Below are positions 6,001-19,324 of a DNA stretch of 21,215 nt, one piece after another; within the stretch, counting starts at the first letter, position 1; every line of letters begins with the position of its first letter. This stretch comes from a virus. The stretch spans positions 1 to 21,215 of the IMG/VR virus record IMGVR_UViG_3300009684_000206; one strand, 5' to 3'. Under the pieces are notes generated by a model. It saw nothing but the letters and a program-made list of their open reading frames with translations, did no database searches and was not told the DNA's origin. Both the position numbers and the translations under genes were made by a program.

Positions 6001-8976
6001 ACTTTAGATATTAGTAATGTTGGTATTGGAACTTCTCATACATTTACTTCAATAAATCAAAATGGAAAATGTTTAATCTCTATTAATAATTTTATTCAAT
6101 CTCCAATTGTAGCAACTTCGGTAACTACAGGATTGACAACTAATATTGGTGTTGTTGATAATATAATTAAATTCTCAGGAATAACTTCTTTCTTTTCTGG
6201 TGATTTAATTAAAGTAGATGATGAAATTATGAGAATCAACACAGTTGGTTTGGGCAGTACAAACTATATTTTTGTTGAAAGACCCTGGATGGGAACAGGA
6301 TTATCAACTCATACAGCATATTCTGTTGTAACCAAAGTTCAAGGAAATTATAATATTGTAAATAATAAAATTAATTTTGTAGAGGCACCTCAAGGTCCAA
6401 TACCAATTGGAAGTTCTACTAATCCACCAAGTGAAAGAGATTGGAGTGGAATTACAACTTATGCAAGATTTCAAGGAAGAACTTTTTTGAAATCTGGACA
6501 AATTAATTCAACTGAAGAAACTTATACAAGAAATTATATTTTTGATGATATTTCACAATATTTTGATGCCAAGACAAAGAAATTTACTCTAACTTCAGGA
6601 AAACAAAATATTTCTGGATTTTCAACCAACAATTCCATAATTTTAATTAATGGAGTTTTTCAAGGACCAACAGGATTGTTGCCAATACCTCAAGATTATA
6701 ACTTAACAGAATCTTCTGGAATTACTAGTATAACATTTACTGGAACAGCAACATCTATTAGATATGATGCAAATAACGCAAATATTCCTATTGGAGGAAT
6801 TATTGTTTCTGTTGGATCAACAGAAGGACTTGGATATCAACCTCTTGTTTCAGCAGGAGGAACTGCGGTAGTTTCTATAGCAGGAACTATTTCTACAATC
6901 AGTATTGGTAATAGTGGTTCTGGGTATCGTTCGGGAATTCAGAAAATTGTGAAAGTGGGAGTTGTTACTTCATCAACAGGTATTCCAAATATTCAATATG
7001 TAGGTATTGCATCAATTTCTAATGGAAATATAGTTTCTGTTGCAATTACCAATCCGGGAATAGGATATACAACATCAAATCCACCCGCTGTTATTTTTGA
7101 CAAACCTTTAAATTATTCAAATATTCCCTTAATTTATAGCACATCTTCTCCTTCTGGATTTGGAACTGAAGCAACAATTGATATTGTTGTTGGGCAAGGA
7201 TCCAGTATTATTAATTTCGAAATTAATAATACTGGATATGGATATGGACAAAAACAAATATTAACTGTTTCTGTTGGAGGAACTACTGGAATTCCTCTTG
7301 ATAGTTCAAAGTCATTTAAAGAATTTCAAATTACAATTGATAAAACAATTTCAGACTCATTTTCTGGATGGAATGTTGGGGAACTTGAAGTACTCGATAC
7401 AATTGAAAGTCAATTTGATGGAATTAAAAAATCATTTACAATTTCAAAAAATAATTCTCCACTAACCATAAGAGCTGCAAAAGGATCTGTTATCGATGTT
7501 CAAACAACTATTTTGGTATTTTTAAATGATATTTTACAAGTTCCTGGGGAGGGTTATACTTTTACTGGAGGGAGTGTTATTGCATTTGCAGAAGCTCCAA
7601 AGGGTTCATCCTCAGATAATGCAACTTCTGGTGATAGATGTAAAATTTTATTCTATAAAGGAAATGGTGATGTTGATGTCATTTATAAGGATATATTACC
7701 TACAGTTAAAATTGGTGACAATTTAACTATTAATGATGATTTCACTCTTTGTGAGTATTCTATACAAGAAGAGAAGAGGTTGGTAGAAGAAGTTATTTCT
7801 TCAGATACTGTTCAGACAAATCCATATGACGGTGCTGGAATTTCTGTAAATTCACTTTGTCTTAGACCAGTAACTTGGTGTAAACAAACTTCAGATAAAA
7901 TTATTAATGGGCAAATTATTAGCAAGAGTAGAGTTCTTTATGAACCTTTAGTAAATCCAACAACAAATATTATTCAATCAGTTGGTGTTGGTTCTACAGT
8001 AATTTTTGTTGAAGGTGTAAAAACTTTCTTTGATTCAATAAAGGAAAATACAACAACAAAGAATAAATATTCTATTGCAATTTTATCTCAAGATTATATC
8101 ATTTCTGCAGCAGCGACTGCAATAGTATCTTATGCGGGGACTATATCATCGATTATAATTTCCAATGGTGGAGTTGGTTACACAACAAATCCGATTGTTT
8201 CTATTGCCGATCCTGCTGGATATGGAATTTCCATTCCAGCAACAACATATAATATTGCGGATAATATTCCTGTTGGATTGGGCACAACAGCAGCGGCAAC
8301 AGCATCAATTTCTGTTGGTGGTACAGTTTCATCGATATCAATTAACACCGCAGGGGCAGGGTATACAAGCTCAAATCCGCCACAAGTTCTTATAGAAATT
8401 CCAAAATCAATATATGAAACAAATACTTCGTTATCTTATGAAGGAGATTTTGGAATAATTGTTGGGGTAAAAACAACTTCTGTTGGAGTTGCTTCTACTG
8501 GACTTATTTTTGATTTTTATATTCCACAAAATTCATATTTAAGAAATTCTTCAATTACTGGCATTATAACCACTAGTGGCATTCAAACTGGATATTATTT
8601 TGTTGTAAATAATAGCAATATTGGAAATGGAGTTACATCACTATATCAAAATGGTTCCATTTTAGGAGTTAGTACTCAATTTTTAAATGGAGTTTATGAA
8701 GTTGCCAGCGTTTCGATCGCCCAAACTTCAGTTCCAGGAATTGCTCTCACATATGTGGCAAGAATTGTAACCAGTATTTCAAGTTATAATTCTTTAAGTG
8801 GAATTGGATATAGTTCTTTTTATGGAGAATTTTCCTGGGGCAAAATAATTTTAGGTAGCAGAAGTAACCCAAAAATATTTAATTCTTATGTGAAAAATGG
8901 AATTTTGGGAATTACAACTTCATCAACAGTGACTAGAATTTCTCCACTAAAATATGTTGGGTACTCTTCACTTTAA
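1..8976 (+). CDS. Giant YHYH-domain virion structural protein (5' partial), in the gp7 position
   Basis: The frame is open from base 1, so the true start lies upstream; 2991 residues are visible. Base 148 is only an internal TTG. Near the visible N-terminus (about 439-917) is a YHYH-type domain with GWAYDGNPIYGPYG (595-636), an NGRF block, PMGTYAYFAT (811-840) and a closing FPYLIG. The rest is a chain of small beta modules: GYT repeats, 'HxxxTGDxV' segments, an RG/GT turn module, a CDNNYYQNFSYS...HPSGF block (about 4129-4260), a GxFDFxIxGAEGQLLF block (about 4700-4770), a tandem duplication at 4951-5598 and two FDGxKKxFTI modules. The C-terminus has a GEFSWGKI...SRS segment (about 8824-8865). 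Proteins of this type lie beside gp8 in marine T4-like phages. By position it replaces T4 gp7, but I see no clear gp7 similarity. A baseplate or fibre role is inferred; the YHYH call is strong. Confidence 0.85.
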   Translation: MNSVQITNPGSGYGSPDILNYDRYPLVTLLNGSGARLLPIVNDGKIVEVLVIDSGSFYNSPPDLVVEGVGKYAKLVPIINEGKIISIRIDNPGIGYSNKTAVNIISPGLNAAFKVNIQKWTVNLFQKYLNIISDDDGILKKSINQDFGIEYCHLYAPRKLRESIYGRDADNNIKYGVFDLQKNSGGNEISSDYHSPIIGWAYDGNPIYGPYGFSTKSQGSVRIMQSGYKIITKTNRPPFPQGFFIDDYEFDNSGDLDEHNGRFCKTPEFPMGTYAYFATVNPISVDSSGCFAKYRQPIFPYLIGNTFKSKPNPFNFDKKSNQISYNLNKSEWFRNTTPYNLTKNNSHYDFLLQPNKLKNFTVNINEISKGSIESIGIITGGNNYQVNDSVVFDTLEGTSKAIAKVSKVLGKEVTNISVASTIISNIQFFPLNSYDTYIGFSTYPHKFLDFDLVSISGLNTSIAALQNSFNIGISSNIFILNTGIGSTGVTGIVTYFNISGEISYPQIVENDILTIDNEQVKVLNVDQKNSRIRVLRKYNGTSDSSHDALTTITENTRKFTFKTKSQNDIAFNLNKEIYFNPIESLGLGSVSGVGIGTTIYFSNPGAGLTQIFIPTQSIYIPNHKLKTGDILTYSTNNNGGSSIGVSTNGTTSFSFENQSIVYVAKISNDLIGISTFKVGIGTTGTFVGVASTTSNKSLLYFTGIGTGLYHSFITNKQNVVLGEINKNVVTVSTAETHGLSINDVVELSVKPFTTTTIIVKYDDYNKRIIFNPKSFSASDVNISDDTITLINHGYKTGDKVIHTSTSPSGGVTNEEIYYVVYYTKDKIKLSNTFYQSKNEEIVDISSSSSGNISAVNPPINAYKNTKVKFDLSDSSLSFTNSSTLYSAFDLNLYEDNQFKNVFDSSKYRNFFEVSKVGNVGITSNASLTLIVSDYLSSNLYYKFTPKNTNISPSTKKEIIIDTEVLNFNQINIINSNYSGKQVITGVGTNNTFTFNLNQYPESSSYSFNESLIEYFTNSTSVFGAISDIKVTYGGKGYSSIVGISTIRTSNGFGALLEPSSTSIGSITSYTIGDIGFDYPTDNTLRPVCNLPEILFIEPLTSFDEIGITSAGKNYSIAPNLVVLDGYTNKVVKDIVLKYNIGNPNVQILQNTFGIYNVTPKIIPISNSNGINIKSISHNISTNEVTVGLNTGFSDSFPFSVGDKVLIENVSVGVGSTGKGYNSSEYGYALFTLTKVPAGNSALGGNVGVVTYSLSNYLNLGEIPGNFDKINSSGKIIAEKDFPVFNIKLKKNDFSIGESVKVGDNYGIVESWNNKINLLKVSTSKDFKVGDILVGQTSRTQGAIKNKIDFNSEIVLGSSSIVKKGWSKESGFLNYNTERICDNNYYQNFSYSLKSKVSFNTWDDAVSSLNHPSGFLKFSDLIIESMDDNFGGVFSDNKGSDIDITVDVYNEINLNCYTDFDLVTENSLNIGDKKVSDEIYFNSRVLTDYYESFGNRVLTIDDISNQFNSNPRPTKFSIVDTFDLQSKYKKYFTYVRDKRYVGERQFCIVSLFYDEGIGYINQYGNVNTQQDLGSFDFNIAGAEGQLLFYPTKYAVNNYDISHTSIDILNSVTGIGSTSLGNIVDIRTSNVLASPSTPTTIVSIGTTFRTSKVLVEIDGGNDGQIQINEVSLIHDGTNVEFLEYAQITNHSTDTFQSTGLGTYNAYISSGYLNLNFTPNVGVAATINTVSVSLSSTISTGVGTEYLNSNEQNISFLDSSYVSIASTSSPIQNIITKYPNTGPNEHSASYFIVSVEDTTNSRYQMSEVIVIDDGTDTYMTEYGNLETYSSLGTIGAAVSTSGYTNLTFTPNANINVQVRTFQISMQIADAYELGSTEILLNNTKITAGYGFYGGTETDIKREFDLKHNQRQIFQRDFNGESANIVDITSDTIIIPEHYFVTGEKVLYTYSGAGTTQAIGIGTTTITGIGTTSKLPSQVYIVKVNEQKVRLSASAEDALKVIPKTLDISNVGIGTSHTFTSINQNGKCLISINNFIQSPIVATSVTTGLTTNIGVVDNIIKFSGITSFFSGDLIKVDDEIMRINTVGLGSTNYIFVERPWMGTGLSTHTAYSVVTKVQGNYNIVNNKINFVEAPQGPIPIGSSTNPPSERDWSGITTYARFQGRTFLKSGQINSTEETYTRNYIFDDISQYFDAKTKKFTLTSGKQNISGFSTNNSIILINGVFQGPTGLLPIPQDYNLTESSGITSITFTGTATSIRYDANNANIPIGGIIVSVGSTEGLGYQPLVSAGGTAVVSIAGTISTISIGNSGSGYRSGIQKIVKVGVVTSSTGIPNIQYVGIASISNGNIVSVAITNPGIGYTTSNPPAVIFDKPLNYSNIPLIYSTSSPSGFGTEATIDIVVGQGSSIINFEINNTGYGYGQKQILTVSVGGTTGIPLDSSKSFKEFQITIDKTISDSFSGWNVGELEVLDTIESQFDGIKKSFTISKNNSPLTIRAAKGSVIDVQTTILVFLNDILQVPGEGYTFTGGSVIAFAEAPKGSSSDNATSGDRCKILFYKGNGDVDVIYKDILPTVKIGDNLTINDDFTLCEYSIQEEKRLVEEVISSDTVQTNPYDGAGISVNSLCLRPVTWCKQTSDKIINGQIISKSRVLYEPLVNPTTNIIQSVGVGSTVIFVEGVKTFFDSIKENTTTKNKYSIAILSQDYIISAAATAIVSYAGTISSIIISNGGVGYTTNPIVSIADPAGYGISIPATTYNIADNIPVGLGTTAAATASISVGGTVSSISINTAGAGYTSSNPPQVLIEIPKSIYETNTSLSYEGDFGIIVGVKTTSVGVASTGLIFDFYIPQNSYLRNSSITGIITTSGIQTGYYFVVNNSNIGNGVTSLYQNGSILGVSTQFLNGVYEVASVSIAQTSVPGIALTYVARIVTSISSYNSLSGIGYSSFYGEFSWGKIILGSRSNPKIFNSYVKNGILGITTSSTVTRISPLKYVGYSSL
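439..917 (+). other. YHYH-type domain within the giant protein
   Basis: The order of conserved blocks fits the YHYH family: a DYHSP segment (574-588), GWAYDGNPIYGPYG (595-636), a DxxNGRF element (about 769-789), TPEFPMGTYAYFAT (about 796-840) and a terminal FPYLIG (about 898-915). The eponymous Y-H-Y-H reads Y-A-Y-F here (820-831), so both histidines are lost. The family's biochemical role is not established. In phages it occurs in large structural proteins, where a surface- or glycan-binding task is plausible but unproven. Confidence 0.8.
4951..5598 (+). repeat. Tandem duplication of a beta module (about 80 residues per copy)
   Basis: Copy 1 (4951-5199) and copy 2 (5362-5598) share the same order of blocks: a strand of VLVEID / FIVSVED type, an EVSLIHDGT / EVIVIDDGT block, an EYAQI / EYGNL block, then SSGYLNLNFTPN / TSGYTNLTFTPN, closed by a VSVSLSS / FQISMQIAD strand. 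About 54 residues separate the copies. The copies have clearly diverged, so the duplication is old. It is a protein-level repeat, not a DNA direct repeat. Confidence 0.8.
6547..7690 (+). repeat. Two diverged FDGxKKxFTI / INGVxQxP modules
   Basis: The first copy (about 6547-6750) reads DISQYFDAKTKKFTLTSG, then IILINGVFQGP, a QDYNL element and ITFTGTA. The second (about 7393-7690) reads TIESQFDGIKKSFTISK, then VFLNDILQVPGEGYTFTGG, IAFAEAPKG and KILFYKGNGDVDV. The order of blocks is the same: a variable target strand, a 'functional name plus fold' strand, a GYTFTGG-like turn and an edge strand. GYT-type repeats fill the stretch between the copies. The pattern occurs in phage tail and fibre proteins. 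The function is structural by inference. Confidence 0.6.
6889..8403 (+). repeat. Cluster of 'TNxGxGYTxxPxV' beta repeats in the giant protein
   Basis: At least five copies lie in the C-terminal third: SIGNSGSGYRSG (about 6898), ITNPGIGYTTSNPPAVIF (about 7042-7098), INNTGYGYGQKQILTV (about 7219), IISNGGVGYTTNPIVSI (about 8155-8205) and INTAGAGYTSSNPPQVLI (about 8341-8395). Each follows an Ala/Thr/Ser-rich strand of A-x-V-S-x-x-G-T-I-S-S-I type, giving a unit of roughly 30-40 residues. Further copies sit at about 13-57, 133-201, 250-315, 1111-1173, 3070-3135 and 3304-3373. Base identity between copies is limited, so this is an evolved protein repeat. Confidence 0.8.
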
Positions 8977-9003: not shown

Positions 9004-10566
9004 ATGTCAGCAATTATAACTGATCAATTTCGTATATTAAATGCAAAGAATTTTATTGCAAGTGTCGCTTCAACAAACAATTCTTATTATACATTTGTAG
9101 GACTTCCAAATTCAAATGATATAAGTTCAACCTGGGATATTTCTCCACCGGATCCAAAAGATAATTTTGATGAAGAAAATAATTATTGGGACACTCTAAT
9201 CGCTCTTAAAAAAATTAATTCTACTGATATTAAGCAAGTTATAAGAAAAATTACTTGGCAATCTGGTGTCACATATGATATGTATCGTCATGATATAAAA
9301 AGTACTAATAGATCTAAACCTTCAGATGCAACAAGTTTATATGATGCAAATTATTATGTAATTAATAGTGATTATAGGGTTTATATATGTTTGCAAAATG
9401 GAACTACTCCAGAAAATCCTTCTGGAAGAGCTTCTTTAGATGAACCAACATTTACGGATTTAGAACCAAAAGAAGCAGGTTCTAGTGGAGATGGATATAC
9501 ATGGAAATATTTGTATACTATTAAACCAAGTGATATTATTAAATTTGATTCTACAAATTTTATGCCAGTTCCAATTGACTGGGAAACAAATTCAGATTAT
9601 TCTCCAGTAAGAAATAATTCATCTGCGCCAAACAATCAATTAAAAATTATAACTATTGTAGATAGAGGTGTTGGATTAGGAACTGCAAATAAAATTTATA
9701 CGAGGGTGCCAATTAAAGGTGATGGTTCTGGGGCTGAAGCTACAGTTGTTATTAATAGTTCATCTAAAGTAGAATCTGTAACTATTTCTTCCGGTGGTGA
9801 TGGTTATACCTTTGGTACTTTGGATCTTGCTTCAGGAAATGTTCCAACTGGATCAACAAAACCAATATTTAATATAATTATTCCCCCATCTGGAGGACAT
9901 GGTTCAGATATCTATAGAGAATTGGGAGCAAGAAATGCTTTAATTTATTCTAGAATTGAGAATGATACTGAAAATCCAGATTTTATAGTTGGAAATCAAA
10001 TTGCAAGAATTGGTATTATTGAAAATCCATTAAAATATAATTCTTCTTCATTATTAGTTGATGATAAGGCTAGTGGTGTTTATGCGCTAAAATTAACTGG
10101 AGTTGGATATAGTTCTGCATCATTTACTGCAGATTCTTTAATAACTCAAACAATAGGACTTGGTTCGACTGCTGTTGGTAGAGTTATCTCTTATGATAAA
10201 GTGACGGGAGTTTTAAAATATTGGCAAGATAGAACAACTTCTGGATTTAATACTGATGCAACTCAAAATTCTTCTCCATCATATGGATTCAATTTAAATA
10301 GATTTGTTGCAAATCCAGATTTTGCTGGGGGAGGAAGTATTAGTATTGTTGGAACAGAAACTAATCTTGCAATACAAACATCATTTACCGGCATTTCAAC
10401 AGTAATAAATAGTAAGACATATTACCTAGGTCAATCATTTGCACAAGGTATCTCTCAACCAGAAGTCAAAAAATATTCTGGAAATATCATCTATGTAGAT
10501 AATAGACCTTCAATTACAAGATCAACAAGCCAAAAAGAAGATATTAAAATCATATTGCAGTTTTAA
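9004..10566 (+). CDS. gp8: Baseplate wedge subunit gp8 (T4-like), enlarged
   Basis: This is a structural subunit of the baseplate wedge; in T4 gp8 joins gp7 and gp10 and later gp6. Conserved blocks are the N-terminal ITDQFRILNAKNF, the central DGYTWKYLYTI (residues 163-173; T4 has DGYVWEYLFEI) and the C-terminal IIYVDNRPSITRSTSQKED followed by IKIILQF, matching T4's MIYMENRPPI...EEINILFTF. It is 520 residues, against 334 in T4. Much of the extra length lies between the central and C-terminal blocks (about residues 215-415), which hold GYT-type repeats (TISSGGDGYTFGTLDL) and an ITQTIGLGSTAVGRVISYDK module. It starts 27 bases after the giant gene and ends 6 bases before the DUF4815-like gene, suggesting co-transcription with the latter. 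The assignment is confident; the role of the insertion is unknown. Confidence 0.93.
   Translation: MSAIITDQFRILNAKNFIASVASTNNSYYTFVGLPNSNDISSTWDISPPDPKDNFDEENNYWDTLIALKKINSTDIKQVIRKITWQSGVTYDMYRHDIKSTNRSKPSDATSLYDANYYVINSDYRVYICLQNGTTPENPSGRASLDEPTFTDLEPKEAGSSGDGYTWKYLYTIKPSDIIKFDSTNFMPVPIDWETNSDYSPVRNNSSAPNNQLKIITIVDRGVGLGTANKIYTRVPIKGDGSGAEATVVINSSSKVESVTISSGGDGYTFGTLDLASGNVPTGSTKPIFNIIIPPSGGHGSDIYRELGARNALIYSRIENDTENPDFIVGNQIARIGIIENPLKYNSSSLLVDDKASGVYALKLTGVGYSSASFTADSLITQTIGLGSTAVGRVISYDKVTGVLKYWQDRTTSGFNTDATQNSSPSYGFNLNRFVANPDFAGGGSISIVGTETNLAIQTSFTGISTVINSKTYYLGQSFAQGISQPEVKKYSGNIIYVDNRPSITRSTSQKEDIKIILQF
9646..10250 (+). repeat. Beta-module insertion within gp8
   Basis: This segment lies between the T4-conserved central and C-terminal blocks of gp8. 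It contains an IVDRGVGLGTANKIYTRVP unit (about 9655-9710), a VTISSGGDGYTFGTLDL unit (about 9778-9830) and a SLITQTIGLGSTAVGRVISY unit followed by a TGVLKYWQ strand (about 10135-10230). The same unit types occur in the two giants and in gp14. Boundaries are approximate because they come from comparison by eye with remembered T4 gp8. Confidence 0.6.
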
Positions 10567-10572
10567 CGAATT

Positions 10573-13500
10573 ATGTCACAAGAAACCAATCTCAATGTTG
10601 CTCCATATTTTGATGATTTTGATGCAAATAATGACTATTATAGAGTGTTGTTTAAGCCTGGATATCCTGTTCAGGCAAGAGAGTTAACAACTTTACAGTC
10701 AATATTACAAAATCAAATTGAAAAATTTGGACAACACTTCTTTAAGGAAGGATCCAAAATAATTCCAGGTAATACTGCGTATAGTCAATCATATTATGCA
10801 GTTGAATTAAATGACACTTATCTTGGAATTGCAATAGTAGAGTATATTGATCAGCTGATTGGATCAAAAATTACTGGACTGACATCTGGAGTAACTGCAA
10901 TTATTCAAAGAGTTTTGATGTCAGATGAATCTGAAAGAGGAAATACAACACTTTATGTAAGTTATCTTTCATCCAACACTAACGACAATTCAACATTATA
11001 TTTTTCAGATGGAGAATTGTTATCTTCCGACAAAACAATAATCTCAGGTAATACAATAATTGCCACTGGAGAAGCTTTTGCTTCAACAATTGCAACTAAT
11101 GCAACTTCGATTGGTTCTGCATATTCCATTTCAAATGGCATATATTTTGCTAAAGGAAATTTTATTGCTGTAAATAATGAGACAATATTACTAGAACAAT
11201 ACAATAATACCCCAAATTACAGAATTGGATTATTAATTGCAGAAGAAATAATAAATTCAGATGTTGATACGACTTTAAATGATAATTCAAAAGGATTTAA
11301 CAATTATGCTGCACCAGGGGCAGATAGATTAAAAATTACTGCATCTCTATTTAAAAAAAGTTTAACTGATTTTGATGATAATAATTTTATTGAATTAGCG
11401 ACAGTAAATGATGGTATTTTAAAATCAAATAAAAGGACAAATTCATCTGTATTTCAAGATGAATTGGCAAGAAGAACTTATGAGGAATCTGGCGATTATT
11501 ATGTATCTCCTTTTGATATTTCCGTAAAAGAATCTTTAAATAATAATCTTGGAAATAATGGAATTTTTAATTCAAACCAATTAACTTATGGAGGTTCCAC
11601 TCCATCCGAAGATTTAGCAGTCTGTCAAGTATCTCCTGGAAAGGCATTTGTAAGAGGATATGAGGTAGAAAATACTGGTACAGTATTCTTGGATATTCCA
11701 AAACCAAGGACTGTGAGCACCTTAACTGCTCAAGCAATTAATTATTATACTGGGCCCACATTAAAACTCAATAGAGTTTATGGAGCTCCAACTATAGGTA
11801 TTGGAAATACCTATATCTTAAGTTTGAGAGATAGTAGAGTAGGTTCTGCTTCAACTTTACAATATGGTAAAGAAATTGGTTTGGCAAGGATTTATGACTT
11901 TAATCTTTCTTCTGGAAGTTATAATAATTCAAATTCAAATATAAATCAATGGGATATTTCACTATACGATATCCAAACTATTTCTGAAATTACTCTTAAT
12001 GAGCCAATTACGCTTCCAATTTCAACATTTATTAAAGGTAAGTATAGTGGAGCAACTGCATTTCTAAAAGAACCTGTATCTGCAGGGGCCGCTTTAACAG
12101 TTTATCAAAAGAATGGTGAATTTATTAAGAACGAATCTTTTATTATTGATGGAATTGAAAATAATAGAGTTGCTGTTGCAGTAACATCATATGGAATTTC
12201 TGATATTAAATCTGTTTATGCAATAGTAGGAACAGCAATTACATTTACTGCCGATGTTATTCAAGATAATTCAATTAGTATTGGTGTAGCAACTATTAGT
12301 GCGTATAATCCGATTGGAATTAGTACGATTGTAAGTGCAAATCCACTTTTTCCACAAAATTTGAGAGTTGGAAATTTACTCAAATTTAGTAACGGAATTT
12401 CTATAGATCCCACTCTAGTAAAGATTGTTAGCGTTGGTAGTACATCAATTAATGTTTCTGGGATATCCACAGTTGTAGGAGTTGTTAAAGGATATTTACC
12501 AACATCTACTTTGCAAATTAATGACCTTACATTAGTAACTACTAACTTACAATCCTCAGGCGACAATACTCTTTATACACCATTACCAAAAATAAATATA
12601 GAATCTGTAGATTTAACCAATGCAACATTAACAATTAGAAAAAAATATTCCGTTTCAATTTCTAGTAATCAACTTTCTTCCAGTCAGACTGCATCAACTA
12701 ATGAAACATTTTTGCCATTTACTGAGGAAAGATATTCACTGATTCGTTCTGATGGAACAACAGAAACACTAACTTCAGATAAAGTAAAAATTACAAATAA
12801 TGGCAAATCACTGCAAATTTATAATTTGGGAAGCAATGATTCAAATTCCACTTTAGTAGTAACTATTAGTAAAATTAATCCAAAGGCAAAAGTTAAAATT
12901 AAAAACAGAGTTGATGCATTAATTGTAGATAAATCAAAGTATGAAGCATCTGGAGTTGGAACAACAACTTTAAATGATGGATTGGTATATGGAAATTATC
13001 CTTTTGGCGTAAGAGTTCAAGATGAAATTATTTCATTAAATTCTCCAGATATTATAGAAATTCATGCAATTTATGAGTCTGCAAATACTTCAAATCCATC
13101 AGCACCAAAAGTAATTCTTTCATCAATAAATGGTCCAACTACTAAAACTTCCGATTTAATTGTTGGGGAAAGATTTACTGGAAAAACTAGTAATGCATCT
13201 GCAATATATGCCGAAAAAATAAATGATTCTCAAATATCATTCATCCCAAAAAATCAAAATACTTTTAGACAGGGTGAAGTTATTGTTTTTGAAGAATCTA
13301 AAATTGAGGCAGTAATTACAACAATAGAAATTGCAAGTTTTGATATTTCATATCATTACAAATATAATAATGGGCAGAAATCAACATTTTATGATCAAGG
13401 ATTAATTACTAGAAAATCTGATGCTAAGGAACCAACAAAGAAGTTAAAAATATATTTTTCTAGTGGATATTACCAGTCTACAGATGATGGTGATATTACA

Positions 13501-16500
13501 ACAAAAAATTCTTATAATACATTTGATTATGTTAGAGAAATTCAAACTGTAAATTCGATAAGGAATACTGATATTATCGATATTAGACCTAGAGTTTCTA
13601 GGTATTCTGTAATAGAAAATTCAAGATCACCACTAGAATTTTATGGAAGAACATTTGATTCTTCTGGAAGTTCTGCAGCAAATATTCTGGCATCAAATGA
13701 ATCTATCATTACAAATTTTTCATTCTATTTGGGAAGAATTGATAGAATTTATTTATCTAAAGATGGGAAATTTCAAATTAAATATGGAACACCATCAGAA
13801 AAACCAGAAAAACCTGTTTCTATAGATGATGCTTTAGAAATTGCGTCTATAGATATTCCACCATATCTTTATAATGCATCCCAAGCCTCTTTAACTTTTC
13901 TTGAGCATAAGAGATATAGGATGGTTGATATTAAACAACTTGAAAATAGAATTAAAAATCTTGAATATTATACTGCATTATCGTTACTTGAAACCAATAC
14001 AGCAAATCTATTTGTTCCAGATTCTTCCGGATTAAACAGATTTAAATCTGGATTTTTTGTTGACAATTTTACATCACTTCTTGCACAAGAAGACAGAGTT
14101 CCTTTCAAAAATAGTATTGATATTTCAAATAAAGAGTTAAGGCCTCAGCATTATACAACGGCAGTGGATTTGATTGTAGGATCTGCTTCTGGAACATCTC
14201 CAAATTCAGATGTTGCATATATTGCCCCAGAAGGAACTAATATTGTAAAGAATAAAGACATCATAACATTAAATTACACCGAAATTGAATGGATTAAACA
14301 AACTTTTGCAACAAGAACAGAAAGTGTAACACCTTTCCTTGTAAGTTTTTGGCAAGGTTCAGTTGAACTTACTCCAGCATCAGATACTTGGGTTGATACA
14401 GTTAGACTTGAAGCAAAAATTACCAATACTGAAGGAAACTATACAGAAACTCTTGCCCTTGCATCAAGAACTTTAAGTGTAGATTCTCAAACTGGATTTT
14501 CTCCAGTAATTTGGAATGCCTGGGAAACTTCTTGGACAGGTAAAGAACCAAGTACTAATACTGCAGATAGAAAAGAAACAACAACTAGTTCTGGAAGATG
14601 GGGGGAAAGAGGCCTCAGGGGTAATGGAGATCTAACTGGTGGTGAATGGATAACTGATCAAATTACAACAGTATATAAGGATACTATTCAAGAAATAAAG
14701 GAGACAGGAATACAAAGTAGAACGGGAACCAGAACTATTGTAACAGAGCAATTTGATAAAACTTCAGTTGGTGATAGAGTTGTAAGTAGAGATCTCATTT
14801 CTTTTATGAGATCTAGAAATGTCCAATTCATTGCCAAAAAAGTAAAACCACTAACTCAAATATATGCTTTCTTTGATGGTATTGATGTAACCAAATATTG
14901 TATTCCAAAATTACTAGAAATTTCAATGATTTCCGGAGTTTTTCAACCAGGAGAAACTGTAATTGGATCTAGACAAAATATAGGATTCTCACCATCAGTT
15001 CCAGATTCTTCAATTCCAAAAATAAAATTTAGAGTTGCTCAATCAAATCATAAAGAAGGTCCATATAACTCCGCAACTTCCGTATTTTTAACAAATCCAT
15101 ATAACAATCAATCATTACCCCAATCTTATTCTTCAACATCTACGATTCTAAATATAGATACTTTTTCACTTGCAAATCAACCTGAGGGTGGATTTAGTGG
15201 GTGGGTAGAATCTAATATGAGTTTAGTTGGACAAAGTAGTGGTGCTCAGGCAACTATTTCAAATATCAGATTGATATCGGATATTTCTGCTACATTGATG
15301 GGAAGCTTTTTTATTGCAAATCCAAATTCTCCCTCAAATCCAAAATTTCAAACTGGAACTAAAGTTTTTACTCTAGTCAATAGCAGCACAAATGATCAAA
15401 ATGCTGCTACTACAATTGCAGAAGAAGGATTTATTTCTAGTGGAACTTTAGAAACTGTACAAGAAAATATTATTTCTATTAGAAATGCAAGAATACAAAA
15501 TAAAAAGGAATTTGAACAGAAACCTGTTTCCAAAACAACAGGATCTCAAGTTATTTCCACACAAACAATTTCACAAACGCCATCAATAAATAAAACCATT
15601 GTTTGGTACGATCCTTTAGCACAATCTTTCTTGGTTGAAGATGAAACTGGAGTATTTATTACAAAATGTGATGTATTTTTTCAATCAAAAGATGATGCAA
15701 ATATTCCCGTAACATTCCAAATTAGAACCATGCAAAATGGTTATCCCACTCAAAAGGTATTACCATTTTCAGAAATTATTATTGATCCATCTCAGGTTAA
15801 TATATCGAATGATTCTTCTATTCCAACAACTTTTGACTTTCAATCTCCGGTTTATTTGGAGGGTGGTAAGGAATATGCAATATGTATTGCATCACTTTCA
15901 ACAAAATACAATGTTTATATTTCAAGAGTCGGTGAAAGTGATTTAATCACCCAAACATTTATTTCAAATCAACCATATTTAGGATCTTTATTTAAATCGC
16001 AAAATGCTTCGACTTGGGAAGCAAGTCAATGGGACGATTTGAAATTTACTCTTTATAGAGCGAATTTCGTATCAAGTGGTACAGTTAATGTTTATAGTCC
16101 AGATTTATCTGAAGGAAATGGCGAAATTCCAACATTAATGCCAAACTCTATCAATTTAAATTCAAGAAAAATTAGAGTAGGACTTGGTTCAACTCTTCAA
16201 GATTCTGGATTAACATTGGGCAATATTATTTTACAAGAAAGAACAAATGCTAGTGGTAGGTATGTTGGTAATGCTGGAATTGCAACTGGAACACTAAATG
16301 TAATTAATTCTGGCATTGGATATACACCATCCACAAATACTTATACATTTAATGATGTAAATTTAATTAATGTTACAGGTACAGGTCGAAATGCAACTGC
16401 AAATATTACCATTAACAATGGTGTAGCAATTGCCGCAACAATTGTATCTTCTGGGTATGGATATAAAGTTGGTGATATTGTTGGTATTACAACAATTGGA

Positions 16501-18057
16501 AACAATTCTCTTGGAGCAAACTCTAGATTCTCTATTGTTTCAATTGCCAGCACAAATGAGTTGTTGATTGACAATATTCAAGGAGATTTTGTAATTTCTG
16601 GTGTTGGAAATACTGTCAAATATACAAATAATTCCGGATTAACAACAACTCTCAATTCTTCTACCGGAGGAAATGTACAAATTTCAAACATAAACATTGT
16701 AAATGATGGACTACATGTTTTAGTAAATCATAAAAACCATGGAATGTATTTTGACACCAATTACGTTACAATTTCAAATACCCAATCCGATATTATTCCA
16801 ACAAAACTTTCTGCTGCACTAAATTCAACGTCAACTTCACCAATTATATTGGATGATGTATCCAATTTATCAATATTTGAAAATGTTGGAGTTGGAACAA
16901 CTAATCTGGGATATGTGTTAATTGGTGAAGAAATTATTTCTTATACAAGTATATCCTCAGGTTCTCTTGCGGGAATTGTATCCAGAGGTGTAGATAGTAC
17001 AATAACTAAAAATTATCCTGCAGGAACTCCTGTTTATAAGTATGAGTTGAGTGGGATTTCTCTCAGAAGAATTAATAAAACTCACAATTTAGCAGATGTT
17101 GATAAAACTCAAATTTCAACTCCAATTAAATTTGATTCTTATCATATTAAACTTGATATGGGTTCCAGTGGGATTGGAAGATCTGATGGATTAAGTTTCC
17201 CCAAACTTTATGCAAATCAGTCAAAATCTGCAGGTGGATATAATACTAAGGCAACTCAAAATATTCAATATGAAATTATTACACCCAACATACAAAATTT
17301 AACAGTTCAAGGTACTTCTTTAAGTGCAGAAATTAAAACTATTTCTGGAGTAAGTATTAGTGGAAATGAAATTCCATTTATTGATAAGGGATATCAACCA
17401 ATATCTCTGAATAAATCAAATTATCTAGAATCTCCAAGATTGATTACATCAAAAATTAATACTGATAGGAAGTTAACTGTTGGACAAAAATCTCTTGCGA
17501 TGACTTTATCATTAGGAACGGTTGATTCAAGAGTAACTCCCGTAATAGATACTCAAAGAATGAATGCAATTTTCACATCAAATAGAGTCAATGATGTGAT
17601 TACTAATTATATAACTGACAGTAGAGTAAATAGTATTTACGATGATCCAACAGCGTTCCAATACTTATCTAAAGAAATTGATTTGGAAAATTCAGCAACT
17701 TCTATTAAGATTCTTGTCAATGCTCATATAAATCTATATTCCAGTATTCGTGCATTCTACGCAATTAGTGAAAATCCAAACTTTACTCCAATTTATACAC
17801 CATTTCCCGGATTTAATAATTTAGATTCTAAAGGACAAGTTATTAGTCCAGAAAATAATGATGGCAATTCTGATATGATGATTTCTAATACAACATCATT
17901 AGGATTTTTACCCTCACAACTTCAATATAAAGAATATACATTCACTGCAGATCAGCTTCCATCTTTTAGATCTTATAGAATTAAAATTATTATGACATCA
18001 ACTAATCAAGTTTATGTACCAAGAATGAAAGATCTTAGAGTCATTGCTTTTGCGTAA
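10573..18057 (+). CDS. Giant DUF4815-like virion structural protein, probable baseplate/fibre component
   Basis: A complete 2494-residue protein. The N-terminus (ETNLNVAPYFDDFDANNDYY, then RVLFKPGYPVQARELTTLQS) is the hallmark of DUF4815-type proteins of T4-like marine phages. Further blocks: a short helical segment YRMVDIKQLENRIKNLEYYT (about residues 1115-1135), a Trp-rich region around residues 1255-1360, KPLTQIYAFFDGIDVTKY (about 1425-1442), a YDPLAQSFLVEDETG domain (1679 to about 1832), GYT-type repeats (about 1907-1970), a GEEII...VSRG module (about 2115-2155) and a C-terminal domain YLSKEIDLENSATSIKILVN (from residue 2364). It lies between gp8 and gp13, where T4 encodes gp9, gp10, gp11, gp12 and Wac, so it probably replaces some of them. 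That role is inferred. Its ATG is 6 bases after the gp8 stop with no clear ribosome site, suggesting translational coupling. Confidence 0.85.
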   Translation: MSQETNLNVAPYFDDFDANNDYYRVLFKPGYPVQARELTTLQSILQNQIEKFGQHFFKEGSKIIPGNTAYSQSYYAVELNDTYLGIAIVEYIDQLIGSKITGLTSGVTAIIQRVLMSDESERGNTTLYVSYLSSNTNDNSTLYFSDGELLSSDKTIISGNTIIATGEAFASTIATNATSIGSAYSISNGIYFAKGNFIAVNNETILLEQYNNTPNYRIGLLIAEEIINSDVDTTLNDNSKGFNNYAAPGADRLKITASLFKKSLTDFDDNNFIELATVNDGILKSNKRTNSSVFQDELARRTYEESGDYYVSPFDISVKESLNNNLGNNGIFNSNQLTYGGSTPSEDLAVCQVSPGKAFVRGYEVENTGTVFLDIPKPRTVSTLTAQAINYYTGPTLKLNRVYGAPTIGIGNTYILSLRDSRVGSASTLQYGKEIGLARIYDFNLSSGSYNNSNSNINQWDISLYDIQTISEITLNEPITLPISTFIKGKYSGATAFLKEPVSAGAALTVYQKNGEFIKNESFIIDGIENNRVAVAVTSYGISDIKSVYAIVGTAITFTADVIQDNSISIGVATISAYNPIGISTIVSANPLFPQNLRVGNLLKFSNGISIDPTLVKIVSVGSTSINVSGISTVVGVVKGYLPTSTLQINDLTLVTTNLQSSGDNTLYTPLPKINIESVDLTNATLTIRKKYSVSISSNQLSSSQTASTNETFLPFTEERYSLIRSDGTTETLTSDKVKITNNGKSLQIYNLGSNDSNSTLVVTISKINPKAKVKIKNRVDALIVDKSKYEASGVGTTTLNDGLVYGNYPFGVRVQDEIISLNSPDIIEIHAIYESANTSNPSAPKVILSSINGPTTKTSDLIVGERFTGKTSNASAIYAEKINDSQISFIPKNQNTFRQGEVIVFEESKIEAVITTIEIASFDISYHYKYNNGQKSTFYDQGLITRKSDAKEPTKKLKIYFSSGYYQSTDDGDITTKNSYNTFDYVREIQTVNSIRNTDIIDIRPRVSRYSVIENSRSPLEFYGRTFDSSGSSAANILASNESIITNFSFYLGRIDRIYLSKDGKFQIKYGTPSEKPEKPVSIDDALEIASIDIPPYLYNASQASLTFLEHKRYRMVDIKQLENRIKNLEYYTALSLLETNTANLFVPDSSGLNRFKSGFFVDNFTSLLAQEDRVPFKNSIDISNKELRPQHYTTAVDLIVGSASGTSPNSDVAYIAPEGTNIVKNKDIITLNYTEIEWIKQTFATRTESVTPFLVSFWQGSVELTPASDTWVDTVRLEAKITNTEGNYTETLALASRTLSVDSQTGFSPVIWNAWETSWTGKEPSTNTADRKETTTSSGRWGERGLRGNGDLTGGEWITDQITTVYKDTIQEIKETGIQSRTGTRTIVTEQFDKTSVGDRVVSRDLISFMRSRNVQFIAKKVKPLTQIYAFFDGIDVTKYCIPKLLEISMISGVFQPGETVIGSRQNIGFSPSVPDSSIPKIKFRVAQSNHKEGPYNSATSVFLTNPYNNQSLPQSYSSTSTILNIDTFSLANQPEGGFSGWVESNMSLVGQSSGAQATISNIRLISDISATLMGSFFIANPNSPSNPKFQTGTKVFTLVNSSTNDQNAATTIAEEGFISSGTLETVQENIISIRNARIQNKKEFEQKPVSKTTGSQVISTQTISQTPSINKTIVWYDPLAQSFLVEDETGVFITKCDVFFQSKDDANIPVTFQIRTMQNGYPTQKVLPFSEIIIDPSQVNISNDSSIPTTFDFQSPVYLEGGKEYAICIASLSTKYNVYISRVGESDLITQTFISNQPYLGSLFKSQNASTWEASQWDDLKFTLYRANFVSSGTVNVYSPDLSEGNGEIPTLMPNSINLNSRKIRVGLGSTLQDSGLTLGNIILQERTNASGRYVGNAGIATGTLNVINSGIGYTPSTNTYTFNDVNLINVTGTGRNATANITINNGVAIAATIVSSGYGYKVGDIVGITTIGNNSLGANSRFSIVSIASTNELLIDNIQGDFVISGVGNTVKYTNNSGLTTTLNSSTGGNVQISNINIVNDGLHVLVNHKNHGMYFDTNYVTISNTQSDIIPTKLSAALNSTSTSPIILDDVSNLSIFENVGVGTTNLGYVLIGEEIISYTSISSGSLAGIVSRGVDSTITKNYPAGTPVYKYELSGISLRRINKTHNLADVDKTQISTPIKFDSYHIKLDMGSSGIGRSDGLSFPKLYANQSKSAGGYNTKATQNIQYEIITPNIQNLTVQGTSLSAEIKTISGVSISGNEIPFIDKGYQPISLNKSNYLESPRLITSKINTDRKLTVGQKSLAMTLSLGTVDSRVTPVIDTQRMNAIFTSNRVNDVITNYITDSRVNSIYDDPTAFQYLSKEIDLENSATSIKILVNAHINLYSSIRAFYAISENPNFTPIYTPFPGFNNLDSKGQVISPENNDGNSDMMISNTTSLGFLPSQLQYKEYTFTADQLPSFRSYRIKIIMTSTNQVYVPRMKDLRVIAFA
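14593..14665 (+). other. Gly/Arg/Trp-rich segment in the DUF4815-like protein
   Basis: Residues about 1341-1364 read RWGERGLRGNGDLTGGEW, unlike the Thr/Ser/Asn-rich beta modules around it. Upstream is a Trp-rich stretch with TWVDTVRLEA, WNAWETSWTG; downstream are RTGTRTIVTEQ and FDGIDVTKY. The composition suggests a flexible or exposed linker between two conserved blocks. It could equally be an ordinary loop, and no function is assigned. Confidence 0.4.
15607..16068 (+). other. Jelly-roll-like C-terminal domain in the DUF4815-like protein
   Basis: Residues 1679-1832 form a compact non-repetitive unit. It begins YDPLAQSFLVEDETGVFITK and continues with CDVFFQSKDDANIPVTFQIR, SPVYLEGGKEYAICIAS, YISRVGESD and a closing DLKFTLYRANF. 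Alternating beta strands around a 'yLegGkeYaiciaS' core resemble the sandwich-type binding domains seen in phage tail and fibre proteins. The fold is inferred from the pattern alone. Confidence 0.5.
16291..16488 (+). repeat. GYT beta repeats in the DUF4815-like protein
   Basis: Two units are visible: LNVINSGIGYTPSTNTYTF (about 16294-16350) and AATIVSSGYGYKVGDIVGI (about 16432-16488). Between them is an Ala/Thr/Asn strand (RNATANITINNGVAI). They follow the same plan as the repeats in the YHYH giant, gp8 and gp14. Confidence 0.7.
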
Positions 18058-18058
18058 A

Positions 18059-18286
18059 ATGTCTTATATGAAGGTGCATGGATATTCGCATTTGTTGAGA
18101 GATTCAAAAACAAATTCCATTATTAATAGTAATATGACAGAATATCAAGAGTATATTGCAAGACGTAATGCAAAAATTGAAGAAAGTCAAAAAGTACAGA
18201 ACTTGGAAGAGGATATCTCCAATATGAAAAGTGATATTGGTGAAATTAAAAATTTATTAAGGAGTTTAGTTAATGAATCCAGATAA
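18059..18286 (+). CDS. Small charged protein with C-terminal coiled coil, function unknown
   Basis: A 75-residue protein whose ATG lies one base after the TAA of the DUF4815-like gene. A second ATG at 18068 (MKVHGYSHLLRD...) is an equally good start; neither has a clear ribosome site, so translation probably relies on coupling to the upstream gene. The N-terminal half has HGYSHLLRDSKTNSIINS and a TEYQEYIARRNAKIEES helix. The C-terminal part (NLEEDISNMKSDIGEIKNLL) has hydrophobic residues at heptad-like spacing, predicting a coiled coil. Similar small proteins occur beside gp13 in marine T4-like phages, to my recollection. It may be a virion accessory or assembly factor, but nothing in the sequence fixes its job. 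Confidence 0.75.
   Translation: MSYMKVHGYSHLLRDSKTNSIINSNMTEYQEYIARRNAKIEESQKVQNLEEDISNMKSDIGEIKNLLRSLVNESR
18259..18264 (+). promoter_or_regulatory. Shine-Dalgarno AAGGAG for the overlapping small gene
   Basis: A perfect AAGGAG lies inside the coding end of the preceding small gene, 8 bases before the ATG at 18273. It is the strongest ribosome site in the window. It is the main evidence that the short, otherwise easily missed downstream frame is translated. Confidence 0.8.
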
Positions 18287-18452
18287 TATCATTTTAGAAA
18301 ATTTATCAAAAAGTTTTGAATACGCAAAAGCATGTTCTGAGCTCGATAAAATTGAAAATATCGAACAACTTAGAGATATATCAAAGGCATATATGAAATT
18401 ATATTTGAAGCAACAAGAAGTTGTAAGTAATTTAGCAAAAATTGATTCATAA
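18273..18452 (+). CDS. Small helical protein (59 aa), function unknown
   Basis: The frame runs from ATG at 18273 to TAA at 18450-18452 and encodes 59 residues beginning MNPDNIILENLSKSFEYAKA and ending QQEVVSNLAKIDS. It overlaps the previous small gene by 14 bases in another frame and has a strong AAGGAG site at ideal spacing. The composition is helical and charged, with no membrane segment or signal peptide. The middle (LRDISKAYMKLYLKQQEVV) looks like one amphipathic helix and resembles short proteins I recall next to gp13 in T4-like cyanophages. Without this gene the interval before gp13 would be an unexplained gap of about 190 bases. The role is unknown; position suggests a structural or assembly task. 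The gene itself is well supported. Confidence 0.8.
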   Translation: MNPDNIILENLSKSFEYAKACSELDKIENIEQLRDISKAYMKLYLKQQEVVSNLAKIDS

Positions 18453-18475: not shown

Positions 18476-19324
18476 ATGGCGCAACCATCTACTAGACAAG
18501 AATTAATTGATTATTGCAAAAGAAAGCTGGGGGCTCCTGTTTTAGAAATTAATGTTGCCGATGAACAAATTGAAGATTTGGTAGATGATGCGGTTCAATT
18601 TTTCCAAGAAAGACACTTTGATGGTGTATATCCAACATTTTTTAAGTACAAAGTAACTCAAAATGATATTGATAGAGGTAGAGCTTCTCTCGATAAGGGA
18701 GAACCGGTAGGAATTACGACTACAAAAGTAACAACAAATATTGTAGGAACCGCAACCACTTTTTCGTATTATGAGAATAGTAACTATTTGCAAATCCCAC
18801 CCAATATTATTGGAATAAACAAAGTATTCACATTTGATGGAACAAATAGCATCGCTAGCAATATGTTTAGTGTGAAATATCAGTTATTCTTGAATGATGT
18901 TTATTATTGGGGTGCTGTTGAGATGTTAAGTTATGCTATGGTAAAGACATATCTTGAAGATTTAGATTTTTTACTAACAACACAGAAGCAAATTAGATTT
19001 AATAAAAGACAAGATCGTATGTATTTGGATATTGACTGGGCATCTATAAATGCTGGACATTATTTTATTATTGACTGCTACAGTACTTTAGATCCAAGTG
19101 ATTATGGAAGAGTTTGGAATGATTCATTTATAAAACCATATTTAACATCTTTAATCAAAAAACAGTGGGGACAAAATATGATGAAATTTACTGGAGTTAA
19201 ACTTCCTGGTGGAGTAGAACTTAATGGGCGCCAAATGTATGATGATGCCCAAAAAGAAATCGATGTTTTAATGGAAAAAATGTCAAATACTTATGAACTT
19301 CCTCCTCTGGATATGATTGGTTGA
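18476..19324 (+). CDS. gp13: Neck protein gp13 (T4-like head completion protein)
   Basis: This protein forms part of the neck ring that seals the DNA-filled head and accepts the tail; in T4 gp13 and gp14 act together after packaging. It has 282 residues, against 309 in T4. Shared features include the N-terminal RQELIDYCKRKLGAPVLEIN, matching T4's LKDVILRRLGAPIINVEL; the DEQIEDLVDDAVQFFQERHF helix followed by DG; the block KLPGGVELNGRQMYDDAQKE, matching LPGGVTIDGQRL...; and the C-terminal PPLDMIG, matching PPFGILVG. The start has a good ribosome site and a late promoter box. The stop codon lies one base before the gp14 ATG, so the two neck genes are probably translationally coupled. Unlike its neighbours it carries no GYT-type repeats. 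Confidence 0.95.
   Translation: MAQPSTRQELIDYCKRKLGAPVLEINVADEQIEDLVDDAVQFFQERHFDGVYPTFFKYKVTQNDIDRGRASLDKGEPVGITTTKVTTNIVGTATTFSYYENSNYLQIPPNIIGINKVFTFDGTNSIASNMFSVKYQLFLNDVYYWGAVEMLSYAMVKTYLEDLDFLLTTQKQIRFNKRQDRMYLDIDWASINAGHYFIIDCYSTLDPSDYGRVWNDSFIKPYLTSLIKKQWGQNMMKFTGVKLPGGVELNGRQMYDDAQKEIDVLMEKMSNTYELPPLDMIG

Follow-up and report, generated by a model that had tools for sequence, protein, structure and literature searches.

A giant open reading frame between gp8 and gp13 of a viral contig encodes a probable VrlC-type baseplate protein of the DUF4815 family

The T4 genes located between gp8 and gp13 are 9, 10, 11, 12, and wac. In a 2010 review, cyanomyoviruses were described as having no wac, g10, g11, g12, g34, g35, and g37, with unknown structural proteins as possible substitutes; a table of the same review places gene 9 (baseplate socket) among the genes common to cyanomyoviruses, its marks being unreadable in the text version (PMC2984593). 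In 2020, VrlC was named as a part of the two-layered baseplate of pelagi- and cyanomyophages and proposed to replace gp7 (PMC7029224). Ackermannviridae are described as having neither gp9–gp11 nor gp12, and their VriC as resembling baseplate proteins of phages A511 and phi812 (PMC11721090). In A511, gp106 trimers are reported to form pyramids, some of them upward-pointing, which swing toward the cell once the fibre protein gp108 has bound (PMC9863714). Here we consider a giant gene that occupies the same interval in a 21,215-base virus contig (IMG/VR record IMGVR_UViG_3300009684_000206), which was analyzed as a whole and is further referred to as the window. Judging by sequence comparison, its product is a cyanophage VrlC, an enlarged DUF4815 baseplate protein and a relative of VriC, TmpG, and A511 gp106. 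Hence, the protein belongs to a known family, and both the missing T4 genes (since 2010) and the role of VrlC in a two-layered baseplate (since 2020) have already been described.

The giant open reading frame (ORF) starts with ATG and is intact, with zero internal stops in 2,494 codons. It matches PF16075 (DUF4815) with 177.9 bits at the curated cut-off of 30 (E 3.6e-52), and phrog_358 covers its residues 1–2494 (E 0). Homologues were identified by tblastn in 1,538 out of 50,697 phage records; in 374 of these records they cover 80% or more of the query. As so many records contain homologues and the phrog_358 match is full-length, the ORF is not a chance one. By name, these records comprise 376 Synechococcus, 341 Staphylococcus, 162 Salmonella, 95 Bacillus, 73 Vibrio, 70 Enterococcus, 61 “Cyanophage” and 54 Listeria ones, plus others.

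The nearest annotated isolates are S-SM2 (SSM2_099, 2519 amino acids (aa), 57.7% full-length identity), SynMITS9220M01 (SynMITS9220M01_085, 2542 aa, 56.7%), and Bellamy (gp113, 2522 aa, 56.2%), and in the S-SM2 record the giant is annotated as VrlC. Closer copies are found in IMG/VR, with full-length identities of 57–73%; another, partial copy is 100% identical. The gene order of all three isolates is gp6-gp7-gp8-VrlC-small genes-gp13-gp14-gp15-gp16, and the window, which extends from the gp7-like gene to the gp15 place, agrees with it. The giant follows the wedge gene gp8 and precedes gp13, as in T4-like cyanophages; the spacing of six bases between gp8 and VrlC is the same in most loci compared. 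The isolates differ in having a third small gene (128–139 aa) before gp13, while the window has two. In S-SM2 this third gene (locus L004, 22940–23329) matches phrog_3304, “L-shaped tail fiber protein assembly” (E 3.6e-19).

Deeper relationships were studied with hhalign for three groups: 19 cyanophage proteins; four VriC-type proteins (two from Ackermannviridae, one from Pootjesviridae, one from an unclassified Vibrio phage); and five TmpG/gp106 proteins of Herelleviridae, where Listeria phages are represented by LMTA-94, not A511 itself. All three groups are collinear. Positions 3–2494 of the cyanophage group align with 2–1612 of the VriC-type group (1,572 columns, E 3e-156), positions 1–1596 of the latter with 1–1134 of TmpG/gp106 (E 8e-80), and positions 1–1840 of the cyanophage group with 1–951 of TmpG/gp106 (E 1.3e-70), followed by a weak collinear C-terminal match to TmpG 1017–1147 (E 0.058). 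Moreover, phmmer with the giant finds the PDB chain 9euf_0 of the phi812 baseplate (E 4.5e-42), with four stretches in order and one weak stretch; Staph1N TmpG matches this chain along all 1,152 residues, and 15 PDB entries (81 chains) contain the chain sequence.

TmpG and gp106, whose phages have Gram-positive hosts, are approximately half as long as VrlC of the window. The hhalign gaps place the additional segments of the cyanophage protein at approximately 73–178, 393–454, 583–914, and 1440–1550 relative to TmpG, and at 1836–1993 relative to the VriC group. The twofold length would thus be explained by beta-rich lobes inserted at several points of the scaffold, not by a fusion of gp9–gp12 and wac. 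VriC of Salmonella phage moki (HYQ36_gp010) is also shorter, with 1612 aa, approximately 880 residues below VrlC of the window. It is followed, similar to the window, by a small protein (phrog_4322, a related family), another small gene and gp13, whereas, differently from the window, tail spike genes are located directly upstream.

Two AlphaFold2 models, each based on 72 of 88 selected sequences (alignments A2 and A3), cover residues 1–1190 (mean predicted local distance difference test score, pLDDT, 82.5) and 1300–2494 (mean pLDDT 77.4). For both half-models, Foldseek ranks phi812 baseplate chains first (E 6.0e-13 and 4.0e-10), and the matched chains come from both pre- and post-contraction baseplates (PDB 9euf/9eui). 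By VIA, the N-terminal half aligns with a phi812 baseplate chain across several domains (Z 15.6, root-mean-square deviation (rmsd) 21.5, 291 residues), and residues 1411–2494 align with 9euf_0 (Z 18.1, rmsd 7.4, 431 residues). The first of two jelly-roll domains (Table 1) matches phi812 TmpG, chain 9euj_G, with Z 19.6, rmsd 3.0, and 36% identity over 149 residues. For the second, C-terminal one, weak matches to ephrin-receptor-type jelly rolls are seen (Z 5.7–6.7). In the Vp4/Deep-Blue homologues, two C-terminal domains have been called carbohydrate-binding modules from AlphaFold2 and Dali, the counterpart of jelly-roll domain 1 being the lectin-like one (PMC11406892).

Table 1. Genes of the window and segments of the VrlC protein, in nucleotide positions of the 21,215-base contig.
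Feature	Position	Strand	Evidence
gp7-like giant ORF, 2,991 aa, open at 5' end	<1-8976	+	phrog_2885 baseplate wedge subunit, E 0
gp8 baseplate wedge	9004-10566	+	Pfam Phage-Gp8, E 9.2e-14; phrog_438, E 2.3e-161
VrlC/DUF4815 giant baseplate protein, 2,494 aa (P0001)	10573-18057	+	phrog_358, PF16075, hhalign
N-terminal core common to TmpG/gp106, residues 1-326 except lobe ~73-178	10573-11550	+	hhalign blocks 1-72, 179-326; DUF4815
Largest insertion vs TmpG, residues 583-914	12319-13314	+	hhalign gap
Conserved DUF4815 core, residues 1043-1279	13699-14409	+	DUF4815 match, phmmer, hhalign
Insertion vs VriC and TmpG, residues 1440-1550	14890-15222	+	hhalign gap
Jelly-roll domain 1, residues 1677-1831	15601-16065	+	VIA to phi812 TmpG 9euj_G
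Insertion vs VriC, residues ~1841-1993, two GxGY repeats	16093-16551	+	hhalign gap, motif scan
Jelly-roll domain 2, C-terminal, residues 2338-2494	17584-18054	+	weak VIA; inside 9euf_0 431-residue match
75-aa ORF, ATG start, coiled-coil-like C-terminal half	18059-18286	+	phrog_473, E 3.8e-25
59-aa ORF, function not assigned	18273-18452	+	relatives at many, not all, loci
gp13	18476-19324	+	phrog_211 head-tail adaptor, E 9.1e-47
gp14, 462 aa	19317-20705	+	Pfam T4_neck-protein, E 4.3e-32
Partial gene in gp15 place	20740 on	+	gene order only

The sequence-only reading of this DNA noted that one giant and two tiny genes fill the interval which in T4 extends from gene 9 to wac, and this is what we observe: a single giant frame between gp8 and gp13, accompanied by just the 75-aa and 59-aa ORFs. 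It further suggested that the whole host-contact apparatus may be one chain standing in for gp9, gp10, gp11, gp12, and wac, instead of several trimers. In favor of such replacement, besides the position, is the absence of the gp11, collar (gp12), and fibritin families from all 11 non-T4 records carrying the VrlC family (six named phages and five IMG/VR contigs of 60–284 kb, some of them fragments), with the T4 control positive each time; moreover, the gp9/gp10 N-terminal family (PF07880, below gp9/gp10-N) was not found in S-SM2, SynMITS9220M01, and Bellamy. Nevertheless, the position in the genome is the only likeness of the giant to these T4 proteins. None of T4 gp9, gp10, gp11, gp12, and wac is matched by any of the three family profiles (hhalign, best E 0.2; the T4 proteins were single sequences, so very remote homology could escape this comparison). 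Seven segments of the giant compared with Pfam at E up to 10 yield DUF4815 only, and no gp9/10, gp11, gp12, or fibritin family. In the fold searches of PDB with the half-models, no T4 gp9–gp12 chain was recognized among the matches listed, which does not exclude such matches. A fusion of the gp9–gp12 genes was considered and rejected, there being no similarity by hhalign or in the Pfam segments.

Moreover, proteins of the gp9/gp10-N family coexist with the VrlC family in nine out of 22 distinct non-T4 records (3/11 and 6/11; PF07880 was run on 12 records twice, and T4 and one repeated record were excluded). The positives are Syn30, S-RIM2, P-TIM68 (where the match spans profile positions 4–39 only), and six contigs (G003 and G006–G010); as G006–G010 were drawn as relatives of S-RIM2, five of the nine are not independent. 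In G003, whose VrlC is 59.8% identical to that of the window, the gp9/gp10-N gene (608 aa) is located between gp7 and gp8. In the window these two genes are only 27 bases apart, and thus no such gene is present between them. The family phrog_677 is found in five of 12 records including T4, the Bellamy match being to its second half only, not to the gp9/10 N-part. The 2,000 bases around the gp9/10 gene of locus L048 had no megablast match in phages.

Separate fibres also argue against a single host-contact protein. In S-SM2, Bellamy, and SynMITS9220M01, fibre-like genes (phrog_30742, phrog_17885) are located between gp16 and gp17, a place before which the window ends, so that fibre genes located there would not be visible in it. 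The homologue of VrlC in S-CREM2, gp124 (38% and 30% identity over two long stretches), has been detected in the virion proteome with 450 unique peptides and 46% coverage, the most peptides of the listed proteins, together with proteins named by the authors short tail fibre (gp126) and long tail fibre (gp85) (PMC10665884). In Sajous1, VriC (gp140, 311 spectra) likewise ranks with the best-represented proteins of the virion (PMC10892097). As relatives have separate fibre genes, VrlC is unlikely to be the sole host-contact protein of the window phage. Hence, of the sequence-only reading the location of the giant in the gp9–wac slot stands, supported by both the position and the lack of gp11, collar, and fibritin families in relatives, while its extension to the entire host-contact apparatus is not supported, and we consider such an all-in-one replacement extremely improbable. 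The opposition of one chain to several trimers is not supported either, given that A511 gp106 is reportedly trimeric (PMC9863714).

The 2020 proposal that VrlC substitutes for gp7 in pelagi- and cyanomyophages (PMC7029224) finds some resonance in the predicted structure. A barrel of approximately 80 residues (842–921), most of which falls inside the largest insertion, resembles residues 765–844 of the T4 baseplate chain 5iv5_BJ (VIA Z 7.7, rmsd 1.9, 72 residues), which we take to be gp7 from its length and numbering. This is a lead only, because the score (Z 7.7–7.9) is tied with unrelated barrels of ATP synthase and riboflavin synthase. On the other hand, the place of gp7 is already filled by another giant ORF, located upstream of gp8 and having its own wedge-family match (Table 1), the upstream giant of S-SM2 is annotated as gp7, “baseplate wedge initiator,” and hhalign of VrlC against T4 gp7 yields at best E 0.077 with probability below 1%. 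Altogether, substitution for gp7 seems very unlikely.

The reading we prefer, to which we would assign a probability of roughly 0.8, is that VrlC is an enlarged DUF4815 baseplate protein, forming a trimer at the outer baseplate beside the gp6-gp7-gp8 wedge, with jelly rolls directed outward, an A511-like reorientation, size gained via inserted lobes, and the 75-aa protein as its partner. By analogy with A511 and phi812, VrlC would assemble as a trimer at the outer baseplate next to the wedge. The N-terminal core and long beta strands may form an anchor and a stalk, from which both jelly rolls (1677–1831 and 2338–2494) would point outward. Again by analogy, a separate fibre would bind the cell first, the VrlC pyramids would then turn toward the cell so that the jelly rolls touch the envelope, and VrlC would help to fix the baseplate before contraction of the sheath. 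The baseplate is where a role of VrlC is best supported, and both its jelly rolls are of the type called carbohydrate-binding in relatives. If so, the 2010 question of what stands in for the missing T4 genes gains a candidate answer, a protein of the TmpG/gp106 type for which the structure of a relative has been solved, and labels such as “virulence associated” or “hypothetical” on homologues could be replaced by a testable structural hypothesis.

An alternative casts VrlC as the primary receptor-binding protein that determines the host range. The jelly rolls of the kind called carbohydrate-binding modules in relatives would suit this role, and a review has raised, as a speculation, that VriC takes part in host recognition (PMC11721090). 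Conservation provides arguments on both sides. Of 42 blocks (up to 60 residues each), 40 show identity of at least 0.49 among 50 close relatives; the lowest block, with identity 0.27, is the linker 1321–1380, and the others range from 0.44 to 0.89. With no hypervariable block except this linker, the pattern is more in keeping with a scaffold than with a main receptor binder. Fibre-like genes elsewhere in the relatives point in the same direction, as do evolution experiments with S-TIM4, where mutations affected tail-fibre and baseplate genes, a set that may or may not include VrlC (PMC6224464). Considering all this, a primary receptor-binding function seems very unlikely.

Several observations weigh against the baseplate-scaffold reading. 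In 37 distant relatives, the C-terminal domain belongs to the parts that diverge most, its identity to the window falling to 0.15 at 2341–2400 and 0.10 at 2401–2460, and among 43 loci with gp8, VrlC (above 50%), and gp13 all present, the mean identity is 61.9% for VrlC, compared to 68.9% for gp8 and 75.5% for gp13. This divergence, of both the C-terminal domain and the protein on average, would also fit host contact and favors the receptor-binding alternative. Whole-model TM-scores normalized by model length are low (0.07–0.25), so the fold match to phi812 holds domain by domain; the N-terminal half matches the pre-contraction chain 9euf_0 with Z 7.3 and rmsd 17.4, amid unrelated folds; and the first jelly roll also resembles proteins from the capsids and tail tips of other viruses (Z 10.2–11.6). 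The long beta strands (1358–1408 and 1625–1676) are predicted at low confidence, and for residues 1841–2337 hardly any similarity to the TmpG sequence can be detected. Besides, the putative trimer, position, and reorientation are transferred from A511 and phi812 by homology, the attachment of A511 gp106 goes via gp104/gp105, and carbohydrate binding by the jelly rolls, as well as the role of the small partner, is similarly putative.

The gene directly downstream of VrlC is itself conserved. In the window it encodes the 75-aa protein (80 aa from an alternative TTG start at 18044). A phrog_473 homologue directly follows VrlC in all 65 close loci tested and in 57 of the 60 S-RIM2-like loci tested (E 1.2e-17 or better), and in the remaining three it is shifted to 265–283 bases downstream. 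There are 80 close loci in total, a VrlC being scored in 71 and the count made on 65, and 77 S-RIM2-like ones, with 62 and 60, respectively; the remainder lack a scored ORF or extend for fewer than 270 bases beyond VrlC. Small proteins of the close loci and their relatives served to build the profile, which makes the evidence of homology in these loci partly circular, but not that of position. Among 17 other loci, a match is in place in 12, nine of them clear (E 1e-7 or better), two weak (L088, E 0.0082; L096, E 0.021), and one not significant (L090, E 1.0), while five loci (L089, L091, L092, L093, L095) have no match in place. In L095, there is a match that overlaps VrlC at its end (E 1.6e-5), and in L091 one is located 5.3 kb upstream (E 4.1e-5).

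Outside cyanophages, the small protein of Ackermannviridae (phrog_4322) looks homologous to phrog_473, with a cross-match at E 2.9e-5 and hhalign probabilities of 73–96% for the group and the members tested. In Staph1N, LMTA-94, and SBSphiJ5, small proteins of phrog_1074 directly follow TmpG/gp106. The Listeria one is weakly similar (E 0.012 to phrog_473; hhalign E 6.5e-5, 64%; hmmsearch E 1.0), and those of Staph1N and SBSphiJ5 show no significant similarity to the window family by phrog_473, hhalign, or hmmsearch. Thus, like gp107 after gp106, the window has a small gene in this place, whereas homology with Herelleviridae is at best weak. In PDB, the Staph1N small protein has no matches, though TmpG sits in 15 entries, and the 75-aa protein of the window has five at E up to 1 (best 5e-5, stalk of a human C-type lectin), none of them with a stretch significant alone. 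The small partner of S-CREM2, gp125, is absent from the published virion table, where small proteins are easily missed (PMC10665884), and the equivalent protein is listed as a chaperone in the Vp4 paper (PMC11406892).

We suppose that the 75-aa protein may be a dedicated partner of VrlC, perhaps a chaperone. The conserved pair of a giant and a tiny coiled-coil-like protein is possibly new to the literature: we have met no description of the small partner across cyanophages, Ackermannviridae, and Herelleviridae, no search by name having been made. More tentatively, and with the balance of probability against it, VrlC and the tiny protein might constitute an ancient two-gene cassette for a second baseplate layer in T4-like cyanophages, Ackermannviridae, and Herelleviridae, replacing T4 gp10–gp12 at the outer baseplate. 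The tiny protein would then be a trimerization or insertion chaperone, absent or unseen in the finished virion, and the cyanophage scaffold would be doubled via beta-rich lobes, some of them from repeat units also present in gp7, gp8, and gp14, which would amount to a decoration code common to several baseplate and neck proteins.

Some loci of the family deviate from the common arrangement. In L029 VrlC is broken into two frames (1261–6639 and 6823–8724), and in L024 and L039 the tblastn match (10001 to approximately 13490) begins 3.5 kb upstream of the VrlC ORF. In Syn30 and S-RIM2 (L097, 17830–24369; L098, 19743–25481), a protein of 1912–2179 aa carrying the major tropism determinant N-terminal domain is encoded between VrlC and gp13. 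DUF4815 also scores above the cut-off in the Synechococcus elongatus control genome, perhaps because of a prophage or a tail-like locus.

Repeats are shared by several proteins of the window. A motif scan identifies the GxGYT-type beta repeat in gp7 (15 matches), gp8 (three), VrlC (two, at residues 1914 and 1961), and gp14 (four, at residues 218–349), and none in gp13; phmmer from gp14 finds gp7 and gp8, not VrlC. This repeat is perhaps a shared decoration unit of baseplate and neck proteins. A TSGAxA-type segment is seen by eye in VrlC (99–150, 487–536, 842–921, and approximately 1550–1600) and in gp14 (approximately 373–415). The gp7-like giant contains a YHYH domain (E 2.2e-22). Finally, gp14 of L048 (18747–21308) has 853 aa, compared to 462 aa in the window, presumably due to a longer C-terminal extension.

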